This document shows positions 30,020-39,576 of a stretch of 64,000 nucleotides of DNA, piece by piece (within the stretch, counting starts at the first letter, position 1; every line of letters begins with the position of its first letter). The notes beneath the pieces are model-generated. The model saw only the letters and a program-made list of their open reading frames with translations. It had not been told where the DNA came from and did not search any database. Location: NCBI GenBank assembly GCA_013076295.1, contig RQOL01000834.1:1-64000 (forward strand), read 5' to 3'. The position numbers and the translations under genes are program-made. This DNA is from Sanderia malayensis. Its lineage: Eukaryota; Cnidaria; Scyphozoa; Semaeostomeae; Pelagiidae.

Positions 30020-30235
30020 TATGAAGCGGTAACCGTGACAAAAATGATTTTTTGACGCGGTAATGACTTTTGCTGCGGTAATGACTTTACACAGTAATGA
30101 CTGTTGCTGCTGTAATGACTTTTGCTGCGGTAATGACTTGTTACATGGCTTTTTACACGGTAATGACTTTTAGTTCGTCGTGACCATGTGTGCAGTCGTG
30201 ACTCCTGCAGCCGTGGAATGCGCGCGTTGAATGCG
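30020..30235 (+). repeat. Left terminal inverted repeat of element B
   Basis: It shares ~215 bp with the reverse complement of 39345-39576. It is composed largely of repeats of GCGGTAATGACTTTT and ends in GTGGAATGCGCGCGTTGAATGCGC. The internal motif recurs 6-7 times per arm, a plausible set of transposase-binding sites (inference). Confidence 0.9.
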
Positions 30236-30730
30236 CACTAGAGTAAACTGAATTGTAGATTCGAATAAACCACTGGAATAAACACAGTACAAACACGAAG
30301 TCTGAAAGTCGAAGTTTGGAAAGTCGAAGTCAATTGGATATGGCGGTAATGTGATGTTTCATTAATATGTTTGTAATGATTAAGGGTGTGGGAAATGAGG
30401 TTTAAATCTTCTTGTTTGATTGTTATTGTCCTGTTTGTTGGTTGGGCCTAAAGGCCTAACTTAACTTGAGCATAGGCCATAGGTAGGCCTAGCTTTTTTT
30501 TTGCCTAGCTAGGCCAGTTGTTCTATGTATATGTAGCTACCCCCAGTAGCAGCAGGCCTTCCACAAACTGTTTGAAATAAATCAACAAATTTCGTGCTCT
30601 TTTTTTATGTAGACTACAAAATAAATCAACACTTTTGTTATATAGACTACACACAAGCTAGGCCAGGTGGTAATACACACTTTTGTGTAAGAATATCAAT
30701 GTTGGTTTTAATTTAATCTTTCTTATTTAA

Positions 30731-32805
30731 CATTCTTATTTAACTCCCGAAGAGACTATTCAAATTCGCATCAAAGGAATCATTTCAACATTGATAAAGA
30801 GACTTGAACAACCTTTTCTGAACAGGAATGATGTTGACTCTATTTGCTATCAACTGAACAACCTCAATGAAATTTGCCTCAAAGCTAATGAGCTATATGA
30901 CATTGATCCAGTAGTAATTGATCTTATAACAAAAGCCAAGGACTACATTGTGAAGGAAAACAACAATTGTGGTTACAGTTCTCCCTTGATTGTTACTGGA
31001 AGCAAGGGGCATCCTCCCTTTAACATTTCCAAGGATCAATTGGAATTGTATTTTTCACATGGATTTTCTACTGAGAAAATTGGTGAAATGATTGGTGTTA
31101 GCAGCAGGACTATAAAACGAAGGATGAAAGAATATGGTTTAGAAATAGGACAGTTGTATAATGACTTAACAAGTCAAGCTTTGGACAATCTGATTCTCCT
31201 GAAAATGAAAGAGTTTCCTAATTGTGGGTACAGAAGGATGAATGGTTTACTGTTAGCAGATGGTGTAAGAGTACAGGAAAGGAAATTACGCTCAGCTGTG
31301 AAATGAGTTGATCCAGAAGGAGTTCTCCTGAGAACAATCCAACTGCAGTTAATACATCGAAGGAAATACCAAGTCCATGGTCCTCTATCCCTTTGGCATA
31401 TAGATGGCCATCACAAACTCATAAGGTTAGGCTATTGAAAGACAAGATTTTAAATTCATTTTCACTTTATACTTTGAATTTAAAAAGTCATTGAATATAA
31501 AAACTGGCTAACCAAAGCAACAATTAAAATTTTTGTGAAATTGTTCCTTCCTGCGCTTGGATTTTGAAGTTTAATTTACTACATTAGAATGTGTTTTAGT
31601 TGATTATGTTATTCTTTGCCAAGGTAAGCAATTCCCTATAAGTTATTTTCTGAATTGTTTGTTTAGATGGCGATTTGTCATTCATGGCTGCATAGATGGA
31701 TATACACGAAAGATAATGTTCCTTGAATGCAATAACAACAACAAGGCTTCAACAGTTTTAGATGCATTCAAAACTGCAGTTGAAAATCATGGCCTCCCAT
31801 CTAGAGTAAGAGCTGACCGTGGGTGTGAAAATGTAGAAGTAGCAAGATATATGCAAATGGAACGGGGTACTGACAGGGGAAGTTTCATTGCTGGTAAAAG
31901 CACCCTCAACCAACGCATTGAAAGGCTTTGGGTCGATGTTTACCTTGGCGTTGTATATATCTATTACTGCACCTTCAGTTACCTCGAGAAATTTCCAGAA
32001 AAATTTCTTGATTTTGATAGTGAAATTGATATGTGTTGTCTTCGGTACACATATTGTGAAAGAATAAATCGGCACCTAACAACATTTGTAGAAGGTTGGG
32101 ACAGACATAAAATCAGCTCTGCCAATAGCATGTCACCCAATCGGCTCTGGATCTATGGCCTGCATAATATTGTAAATTCTGGAATGCTAGTTGCAGAGGA
32201 AATTTGGGAACCAAGATCTGATGTGAGTAAATAATAAAGCAACAGTTGATGCAATTTTAGTTACAGTTAGATTAGAGGATTAGTTGCAGAGCAGGGTTTT
32301 ATGGGCTGCCCCTTACTTTATTATTATTTATTAAAAAATTGAAGACATATATTTAGTGTTTTGGCTGAAATGAAGCAACTTTCTTCCTCACAAGTGCCCA
32401 AAATTAAGAGCCTTAGCTTCAAAGCAGATGGTTCTTATATGTGGATTTCTGGTGTAGTGCTTCTTGCTGGCTTACAGAAAACCATCTAGCAAGAAAAGAA
32501 TACAAAATCAAAAATTTATAAATGATTCAGGTAGATTAAAAAGCAATAAGCTGTACAACTGTTAATTATTTCTGCAGGATGAATCAATTTCCTATGGAAT
32601 AGACCACGAAGGTCCAACAGTGGAAAACACAGAAGGAAATGAAGTGGCTGTTCCTGCCACAATTTGCCCATTGGATCATAATCAACTGGCCACTCTCAGT
32701 GCTAAAATAAATCCATTGGAAGAAAGCGAAAACTTTGGCATTGAAATATATTCAAAAACAAAAACTATAGTGGAAGAGCTTTTGTTTGAAAATAACATTT
32801 TGTAA
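30731..32805 (+). pseudogene. IS3EU-type integrase of element B, three recognised exons, one premature stop
   Basis: The frame opens after a stop at 30728-30730; the true start or 5' exon is not fixed. Exon A ends at 31425 (ATAAG/GTTAGG), exon B is 31667-32222 and exon C 32578-32805; phases match throughout. Exon A has an N-terminal helical region, a helix-turn-helix (STEKIGEMIGVSSRTIKRRM) and WHIDGHHKL (first catalytic Asp). Exon B has FVIHGCIDGYTRKI, RVRADRGCENV (second Asp) and NQRIERLWVDV (Glu). A TGA at 31304-31306 (CGA in relatives, by inference) is the only break seen. It would cut and join the element's DNA ends. Confidence 0.75.
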
Positions 32806-37900: not shown

Positions 37901-39356
37901 TCGCGAGAAACATCCTCGTATATCCCTGATATTGTACCAGTTAATTGGCAACTTTTCTACAGGTTTCGCAACTCCACCCCCACTGCTTTTTAATAGCAAA
38001 TATCCACCACACTCCTTCAATTGAGGGAAGACTTCCTCCATTTCTTCACACACTTCCTTGTGGTTTGCAAACCTTTTTGGAAAACATATCTTTCTCTTGC
38101 TAAGACCAGCTTTTCTTAATGACTCCATGAGCTTTGTTGATGGTGTTTCATTCGACCATGTATATGGGATGCAGCAGAAATCATTTGTCCATGTTTCTTT
38201 AACAGGATATGGTTTGAACTGATTTGACCTGACTTGACTTGTTGTTTGCCATGCCCGGGGTTTTGGGACAGCCTGTCTTAATGCCTGATGGTTGATCCCT
38301 CTGGCTGACATAGCAGGAAATCTTTTCCTGCAAGAAAGAAAGTCCAGAAAGTGAAAACAAAAATTTTTTTGAGGTTCAATTTAAATGATGGAGCAAAAAG
38401 TATTGACAAATCTGGGTGCAGAAATATAGGGAAGTGTCCTGACGCAAACTACCAAAAAATGTTTTATACCCACTACCATATTTTTTTATGCTGCAAGGCT
38501 TTAAGTGAGGTAGCTGGTTTGGTGTCACCTAATTATAGGTTTGTTATGTGCAAACCGGAAAGTCAAGAGGAATTTTGGAAGTCCATTTCAAAAGTAATTT
38601 CAACTTGATTATTTTAAGTGTCAATGTAGAAGAAGGACGATATAAAAAATCGCAAATAATAAATTGTTATTTTGTGCTAGCTAAAAACGACAGTAAAAAG
38701 GAATATGAAATAATTTCAAAGATTAGCTAACTAGCTAAGTGCCCACAAACGGCATTAGATCAATTTAAAATGATCCTCGAGAGTGTCAAACCCATTGTTA
38801 TTCACGCTTTATGTAATTTCCTGAAACAAACAAATAACCTAAGAAATGAAGCTAAAAAAGTGCCTTGAAATCCCCCACACCTGAGATCATTTATTTCTAT
38901 CGTTTTGTTCAAATATTTTGTAGCAAAAATATTCATAACCAGAGAGGGCCTAGGCTTAGCAAGCAAGATATTAAGCTATAGAAAGCTATAAAATTTTCAA
39001 TCTACAAACTTTCGAGCGTAGACCTTACCTTACAAGCCTATTAAACCCCTCAGTTCCTACCTGAAATTTTCAACAGGATTTGGAGAGCTGTTAGTGTTCA
39101 GCAAACCATGAGCAGCTGTGGAAGAAGGATGAGATGATGAGGTTGTTGCACTTGAGGTTGTTCCACTTGAAGCACTTAACTGGTCATGGCAATTTTCAAG
39201 CAGAGACAATGCCATCTCAATGGCCTTTTTGGTGTCAACTTCCTTGGTGTCCTTGTCCTTGCTGTCCATATTCACATAACTGTTCCTGCCTTGATTTCTT
39301 CGTTCCATTCCAATGCGGTCACTTTTTGGCGCCAAAAATATGTTTATAGTGCGCAT
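34988..39356 (-). CDS. Transposon-encoded RING-HECT E3 ubiquitin ligase, six exons, 814 aa
   Basis: Exons 39356-39061, 38327-37841, 37636-37527, 37190-37151, 36828-36762 and 36432-34988 join with GT-AG introns and matching phases. They total 2445 nt, 814 codons plus stop, with no internal stop. Residues ~1-98 are Ser/Thr-rich and low-complexity. ~262-300 hold a C2HC zinc-binding segment (CIQCGTVMTPLLLAEHVKHC). ~337-395 form a RING finger (CAICLEIL, HDKCLRQW, CPVCRKPF). The rest is a HECT-like domain starting VHFVGESGVDTGGLSREF and ending ANTCAMQLVIPV, with Cys at the thioester position. It resembles G2E3-like proteins. It should transfer ubiquitin; substrates are unknown. The first ATG lies near the inner edge of the right terminal repeat, so the repeat may carry its promoter. 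Confidence 0.75.
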
Positions 39357-39576
39357 TCAACGCACGCATTCCACGGCTGCAATAGCCATTACCGTCATTA
39401 CCGCAGCAAAAGCCATTACCGTGTAAAAAGTTATTACCGCAGCAAAAGCCATTACCGCACTAAAAGCCGTGTAACAAGTCATTACCGCAGCAAAAGTCAT
39501 TACAGCCAGAGTCATTACCGCAGCAAAAGTCATTACCGCGTCAAAAAATCATTTTTGTCATGGTTACCGCTTCATA
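39345..39576 (-). repeat. Right terminal inverted repeat of element B
   Basis: Reverse complement of 30020-30235, with a few indels in the number of GTCATTACCGCAGCAAAA units. It abuts CTGGAA at 39577. It overlaps the first codons of the HECT gene (start at 39356), so promoter and translation start lie at or inside the transposon end. Confidence 0.9.

Follow-up and report, generated by a model that had tools for sequence, protein, structure and literature searches.

Two-gene transposon in the Sanderia malayensis genome

The 64,000-nucleotide stretch of Sanderia malayensis contig RQOL01000834.1 analyzed here (the window) contains a 9,557-bp transposon at positions 30020-39576, in which an integrase gene on the plus strand and a gene for a predicted RING-HECT ubiquitin ligase on the minus strand form a convergent pair. 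A first-pass annotation made from the sequence alone had described this element, and our analysis confirms it: the terminal inverted repeats that it claimed extend over 67 nt with 99% complementarity, and the 6-bp target duplication CTGGAA adjoins both sides. The outermost bases are TA at both ends (termini TATGAAGCGG..CCGCTTCATA). The locus is laid out as follows.

30014-30019, no strand: left target-site duplication, CTGGAA (direct reading)
30020-30086, plus: left terminal inverted repeat, 67 nt, beginning TATGAAGCGG, 99% complementary to 39510-39576
30057-30139, plus: left subterminal 18-bp repeats, 4.7 copies (Tandem Repeats Finder)
30731-31306, plus: upstream frame of the integrase gene, with weak helix-turn-helix (HTH) matches, closing at a TGA (open frame and profile matches)
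31307-31425, plus: part of an integrase exon, encoding the first catalytic Asp in a motif from 31397 (PF24764, E 3.3e-6; inferred splice)
31667-32222, plus: integrase exon with the second Asp, motif from 31809, and the Glu, motif from 31908 (PF24764; inferred splice)
32578-32805, plus: last integrase exon, with TAA stop (open frame after inferred splice)
33055-34570, no strand: 1,516-bp element with long inverted arms, nested in the transposon without belonging to it and absent from the second genomic copy
36432-34988, minus: HECT gene exon 6, with RING and HECT domains and the catalytic Cys codon at 35099-35101, residue 778 (profile matches)
36828-36762, minus: HECT gene exon 5 (splice prediction)
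37190-37151, minus: HECT gene exon 4 (splice prediction)
37636-37527, minus: HECT gene exon 3 (splice prediction)
38327-37841, minus: HECT gene exon 2, without a Pfam family (splice prediction; Pfam search)
39356-39061, minus: HECT gene exon 1, with the first ATG in the inner repeat region (splice prediction)
39394-39539, minus: right subterminal 18-bp repeats, 8.6 copies (Tandem Repeats Finder)
39510-39576, minus: right terminal inverted repeat, 67 nt, 99% complementary to 30020-30086
39577-39582, no strand: right target-site duplication, CTGGAA (direct reading)

The element combines the three features by which IS3EU transposons are recognized, namely TA..TA inverted repeats, a 6-bp duplication and a DDE integrase-like transposase, and from its ends, duplication and integrase family it would be named IS3EU. 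The integrase gene matched PF24764 (rva_4) with an E-value of 5.1e-62 at 31668-32231 of the plus strand, with weak HTH matches in the exon upstream and two weak transposase matches in PHROGs. The IS3EU-type integrase proposed by the first-pass annotation is thus present, but that annotation had missed an in-frame TGA at 31304-31306, 5' of all three catalytic residues. The two genomic copies of this insertion, the one in the window (C788) and C678, both carry the TGA in frame, so that the copy in the window has likely lost its ability to move, while its HECT frame is predicted to be open.

The flanks of C788 and C678 agree at about 96% identity, which indicates a single insertion seen twice, as two haplotypes or a segmental duplicate, and a genome search with the window end sequence returned only these two copies and a 50-nt partial end at C303:2827294. 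The nested element distinguishes the two copies: in the window it lies between the two genes, flanked by TTAA duplications (33051-33054 and 34571-34574), whereas C678 has a single TTAA at the corresponding place.

The predicted six-exon HECT gene comprises 814 codons and a final stop, without an internal stop when the acceptor CCAG/TGG is used for the RING exon; the obvious acceptor, CTTTCTAG, lies 9 bases upstream of it and leads to a stop. Both domains that had been claimed score above their Pfam cut-offs: the RING domain matched PF13639 across its zinc-ligand pattern (E 8.4e-7, 29.6 bits, cut-off 27.3), and the HECT domain matched PF00632 (E 2.3e-5, 24.6 bits, cut-off 23.9). The HECT profile and fold match covers both the N- and C-lobes, with 14-17% identity to the solved HECT domains of E6AP, HUWE1 and UBR5. 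PHROGs gave no match for the HECT protein, and protein searches gave few relatives (7, 2 and 7 proteins), several of which are EukProt models matching S. malayensis own genes. Two such models, P0002 (747 aa, starting 16 codons downstream of the first ATG in exon 1) and P0001, remove part of the RING domain by splicing, and in C678 the exon 5 acceptor reads GG. Model P0001 begins in a short minus-strand open frame of the flank that was interrupted by the element insertion (..ALPDVP / ETLVIGSLRARG..), crosses the terminal repeat and enters the HECT gene.

A related transposon family at four genomic sites

Near-identical HECT and integrase matches led to a related 4,760-bp element with termini TATGGCACGCCAT..ATGGCGTGCCATA, which is present at four sites (C571, C618, C737 and C781) and 99.9-100% identical in the pieces compared. 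Left and right flanks differ among all four sites, and the integrase-side pieces diverge at nearly the same base (3,012-3,016 of 3,480), which marks the element end. The copies in C618, C737 and C781 are bounded by the 6-bp duplications CATTAG, ATTTGG and GAGATG, respectively, and their HECT and integrase matches contain no stop. The C571 copy (locus L078) encodes a HECT protein of 734 aa and an integrase of 481 aa in convergent, uninterrupted frames, both between the repeats. At this copy we also observed a 10-bp duplication, CAACAGTAAC, at C571:4110027-4110036 and 4114797-4114806.

Four stretches of the genome span the joined flanks of the C781 insertion with 87-91% identity, and the three that were read, those other than C781:4444909, all carry a single GAGATG, as paralogous empty sites. 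A HECT gene borne by a transposon, as the first-pass annotation had proposed, is therefore directly visible in this family, inside the repeats at four sites and missing at the empty sites of the C781 insertion. The C571 insertion gave no strong match across its joint and two weak ones (C571:387403-387581, 75%; C569:518138-518352, 71%). Both element ends were read for the window and the four-copy families, and no end repeats lacking a HECT gene were seen in either: both copies of the window ends and all four pairs of four-copy ends enclose one. The only further occurrence of the four-copy end sequence in the genome, a single end at C866:336586, adjoins a HECT remnant with stops. Taken together, these elements are almost certainly two-gene transposons.

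Pairing of HECT and integrase genes across the genome

To describe the pairing genome-wide, we pooled 134 HECT matches to PF00632 with those to three transposon-type queries (the window protein, 94; the four-copy HECT, 82; a divergent transposon HECT, 56), and compared them with 157 integrase matches (150 listed of 151, and 7 places chosen by eye from 150 of a second search). The match lists were scored to about 150, with 361 and 572 integrase candidates, and genome-wide counts are therefore lower bounds. At least 85 of the 157 listed integrase matches have a HECT match within 6 kb, and 83 of these 85 pairs are convergent. With the list that preceded the four-copy HECT search (85 paired, 82 convergent), 1,000 randomizations of position on these contigs, with contig ends set at the last match plus 5 kb, gave means of 17.2 and 4.0 and maxima of 28 and 10.

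Among the best 30 integrase loci, which contain haplotype and duplicate copies, 26 are paired by the match lists, L057 through a single weak HECT match (E 4.4e-4); a HECT profile, A2, adds L069 and L071, giving 28/30. Profile A2 was built with HECT pieces from L051, L053, L054, L058, L060, the window and the four-copy family, and the matches of these members hold by construction because their pieces are in the profile; L055, L056 and L071 are outside it, and an earlier profile without L051, L053 and L054 caught these three loci with E-values of 1e-6, 9.5e-4 and 1.8e-6.

Approached from the other gene, 23 of the 30 HECT matches closest to the window HECT exon lie no more than 1.5 kb from an IS3EU-type integrase. 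Two pairs of matches (L019/L022 and L020/L023) are split pieces of one gene each, which makes 21 of 28 places, or 22 places with an integrase if the window is counted, where the integrase is 2.8 kb away from the HECT exon. The integrases beside L024, L039, L042 and L044 are outside all match lists.

Co-divergence and conservation of the two genes

Coverage and near-copy filters reduced 48 loci with both genes to 26 families. The nearest neighbors of integrase and HECT agree in 13 of the 26 families (at most 6 in 2,000 shuffles), the two trees have 11 of 23 splits in common (shuffle mean 0.18, maximum 2, in 500 shuffles), and the distances of the two genes correlate at 0.29 (none of 2,000 shuffles as high). 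This correlation falls to 0.14 without the closest pairs, and the deep branching of the integrase tree differs from that of the HECT tree; hence the evidence for co-divergence is clear for recent branches but not for ancient ones.

The HECT catalytic Cys and its surroundings are kept in all 25 families that cover it (one of the 26 lacks coverage), and the D, D and E of the integrase are kept in 24/24, 26/26 and 25/25 covering families. Of 323 family pairs, 304 show greater divergence in HECT than in the integrase, and the N-terminal half of the HECT protein is variable between families. Between the window element and a relative in C303, the ratio of nonsynonymous to synonymous rates (dN/dS) is about 0.13 for HECT and 0.10 for the integrase, at saturated dS (2.5 and 1.8). 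Between C788 and C678 the ratios for integrase and HECT are 0.52 and 0.86, respectively, and the HECT genes of L051 and L053, two near copies, are separated by seven amino-acid-changing and no silent changes. We read these patterns as both genes probably having been kept working while the elements spread and drifting after insertion.

The four-site element, the pairing counts, the shared splits and the kept Cys thus establish HECT as a standing second gene of these IS3EU-type transposons in the S. malayensis genome. For this genome, the earlier view of HECT copies as transposon cargo holds as to their location, within repeats and near an integrase; the word itself looks too weak, because integrase and HECT partly co-diverge.

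Comparison with known systems

The transposon HECT proteins resemble E6AP, HUWE1 and UBR5 in the profile and fold match over both lobes and in the catalytic Cys, and differ from them in being transposon-borne, in their low identity and in that many score near or below the Pfam cut-off. G2E3 has a RING/PHD-like part ahead of its HECT domain, as does the transposon protein, and the human G2E3 HECT domain has been reported to be enzymatically inactive; the transposon proteins keep the catalytic Cys.

Among mobile elements, RAG-like transposons have a transposase of the Transib type. According to the accessible part of their description, they too combine two convergent genes in an animal DNA transposon, but the partner is RAG2-like and HECT is lacking (PMC7204232). 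Helitrons with VTD or OTU deubiquitinases likewise encode a ubiquitin-system enzyme; as far as the available text goes, they remove ubiquitin rather than add it, transpose by a rolling-circle mode and carry the domain within the transposon protein (PMC9741609). IS3EU/GingerRoot elements are known systems which share the TA..TA ends, the 6-bp duplications and the integrase-like DDE transposase, and for which the available portion of the source mentions no HECT or other ubiquitin gene (PMC10045372). Fungal IS3EU elements (ends TAYGG..CCRTA) have 6-bp duplications and, like the elements described here, an extra gene opposite the transposase: a TET/JBP gene is flanked by the transposase gene and by an alpha-kinase gene of opposite orientation, and the TET gene is proposed to help in escaping silencing (PMC12730594). 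Unlike the elements in S. malayensis, these fungal elements are described there with a kinase and a dioxygenase and without a ubiquitin ligase (PMC12730594). The literature searched, with Repbase, preprints and most subscription journals outside its scope, contained nothing on IS3EU combined with HECT; Repbase may therefore hold such entries.

A scan of prokaryote genome contigs returned three IS3EU-type integrases, all in one Poecilosclerida sponge metagenome-assembled genome. These contigs, LWTN01000118.1 (L085), LWTN01000139.1 (L086) and LWTN01000127.1 (L087), place eukaryote-type transposon DNA in a bacterial sponge-symbiont assembly and are likely contaminating sponge host DNA. L085 continues for 1.0 kb after the integrase frame, L086 enters a gypsy-like frame and L087 ends within the gene.

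Proposed role of the HECT protein

The reading that we favor, with a probability of about 0.55, is that of an IS3EU-type transposon whose convergent RING-HECT ligase ubiquitinates host restraint proteins and so enables its spread. The integrase would cut and join the TA ends with a 6-bp stagger, and the HECT protein, made from the opposite end of the element, would be loaded with ubiquitin on its C-lobe Cys and hand it to a target chosen by its variable N-terminal half; this substrate would be a host silencing or repair factor, not the integrase. Judging from the sequences, the HECT protein is very probably an active ligase and, if so, its targets would rather probably be host proteins, with restraint factors as our best guess. 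The higher divergence of HECT and its changing N-terminal half are somewhat easier to reconcile with a conflict with host targets than with an unchanging partner.

Several observations weigh against this reading. Among the listed matches, 72 of the 157 integrase matches lack a HECT within 6 kb, and of the 130 HECT places detected by transposon-type queries, 79 lack an integrase within that distance; L064 and L076, among the best 30 integrase loci, have no HECT, profile A2 included. No empty site was seen for the window insertion, for which only C788 and C678 match both flanks. The RING exon depends on the single inferred acceptor, and the RING part of the predicted structure model is of low confidence. 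The dependence of the distance correlation on the closest pairs and the saturated dS between families count in the same direction, as does the lack of HECT on the three sponge-associated integrase contigs, which are short and provide a weak negative for generality.

The foremost alternative, which we consider unlikely, is that the ligase ubiquitinates its own integrase or the strand-transfer complex, thereby timing, limiting or dismantling it. The unloading of MuA by ClpX offers a parallel for action on transposon machinery, and a direct partner would fit with HECT being constantly paired with the integrase and partly co-diverging with it; the excess divergence of HECT, its variable N-terminal half and the differing deep branches of the two trees speak against such a partner, without being decisive. 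An adaptor or decoy of the ubiquitin pathway, with a HECT part that is no longer enzymatic, would accord with the low identity to solved HECTs and with the failure of Pfam to find a HECT domain in the four-copy protein, but is improbable given the retention of the catalytic Cys and its surroundings in every covering family.

Quite improbable is a host HECT gene captured once and carried along without use. The ratio of 0.86 between C788 and C678 and the changes between L051 and L053 would suit such a passenger, but these values describe drift after insertion, and the between-family ratio (with its saturated dS), the kept Cys and the pairing across 26 families argue against it. Finally, host HECT genes with integrases inserted alongside by chance, a reading favored by the 79 HECT places lacking a listed integrase, are extremely improbable given the near-uniform convergence of the pairs, and for the four-copy family this reading is contradicted by the position of HECT inside the repeats of four differently flanked copies and by its absence from matching empty sites.

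Animal DNA transposons are generally regarded as carrying a transposase and, beyond it, no more than a small DNA-binding helper. The retention of a large ubiquitin-ligase gene by many transposon families in one genome provides a counterpart to the Helitron deubiquitinases, a route by which HECT genes can multiply within a genome and a model for studying how transposons employ the ubiquitin system, be it in concert with the host or in conflict with it; it also warns that HECT genes in gene catalogues may belong to transposons. With four near-identical copies whose frames are open, the question can be put to the test. More tentatively, the HECT ligase may be a founding second gene of animal IS3EU transposons, making the host cell destroy its own transposon-silencing proteins; if this doubtful but broader proposal is true, lineage-specific HECT expansions in other genomes, among them the G2E3-like sets known from cnidarians and fish, would be living, dead or domesticated copies of this transposon gene.

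Other features of the window

A second, decayed pair in the window consists of IS3EU-type integrase remnants at 4722-5224 on the plus strand (E 7.2e-7 and 0.003) and a convergent HECT match at 6288-6509 on the minus strand (E 8.6e-6). HECT fragments at 14204-14758 (plus, E 1.6e-15) and 41495-42325 (plus, E 2.7e-5) were detected by our own profiles only, with Pfam silent, and an integrase fragment at 23440-23703 (minus, E 1.5e-19) by our own profile only.

A reverse transcriptase frame (9371-10555, minus), a frame with THAP and a DDE-type helix-turn-helix (26238-27235, minus) and a Tc1-like transposase frame (28525-29481, minus) mark the stretch as transposon-rich. Tandem arrays that are related to one another, with repeat units of about 88-117 bp, are scattered over the window at 3068-3612, 13599-13843, 25039-25273, 51472-52224, 55730-56154 and 58341-59287. 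Collinear inverted repeats of roughly 3 kb, at about 282-3360 and 51467-58205, have pieces that are 79-89% complementary and lie about 50 kb apart; they represent either one repeat present twice in opposite orientation or the termini of a very large element.

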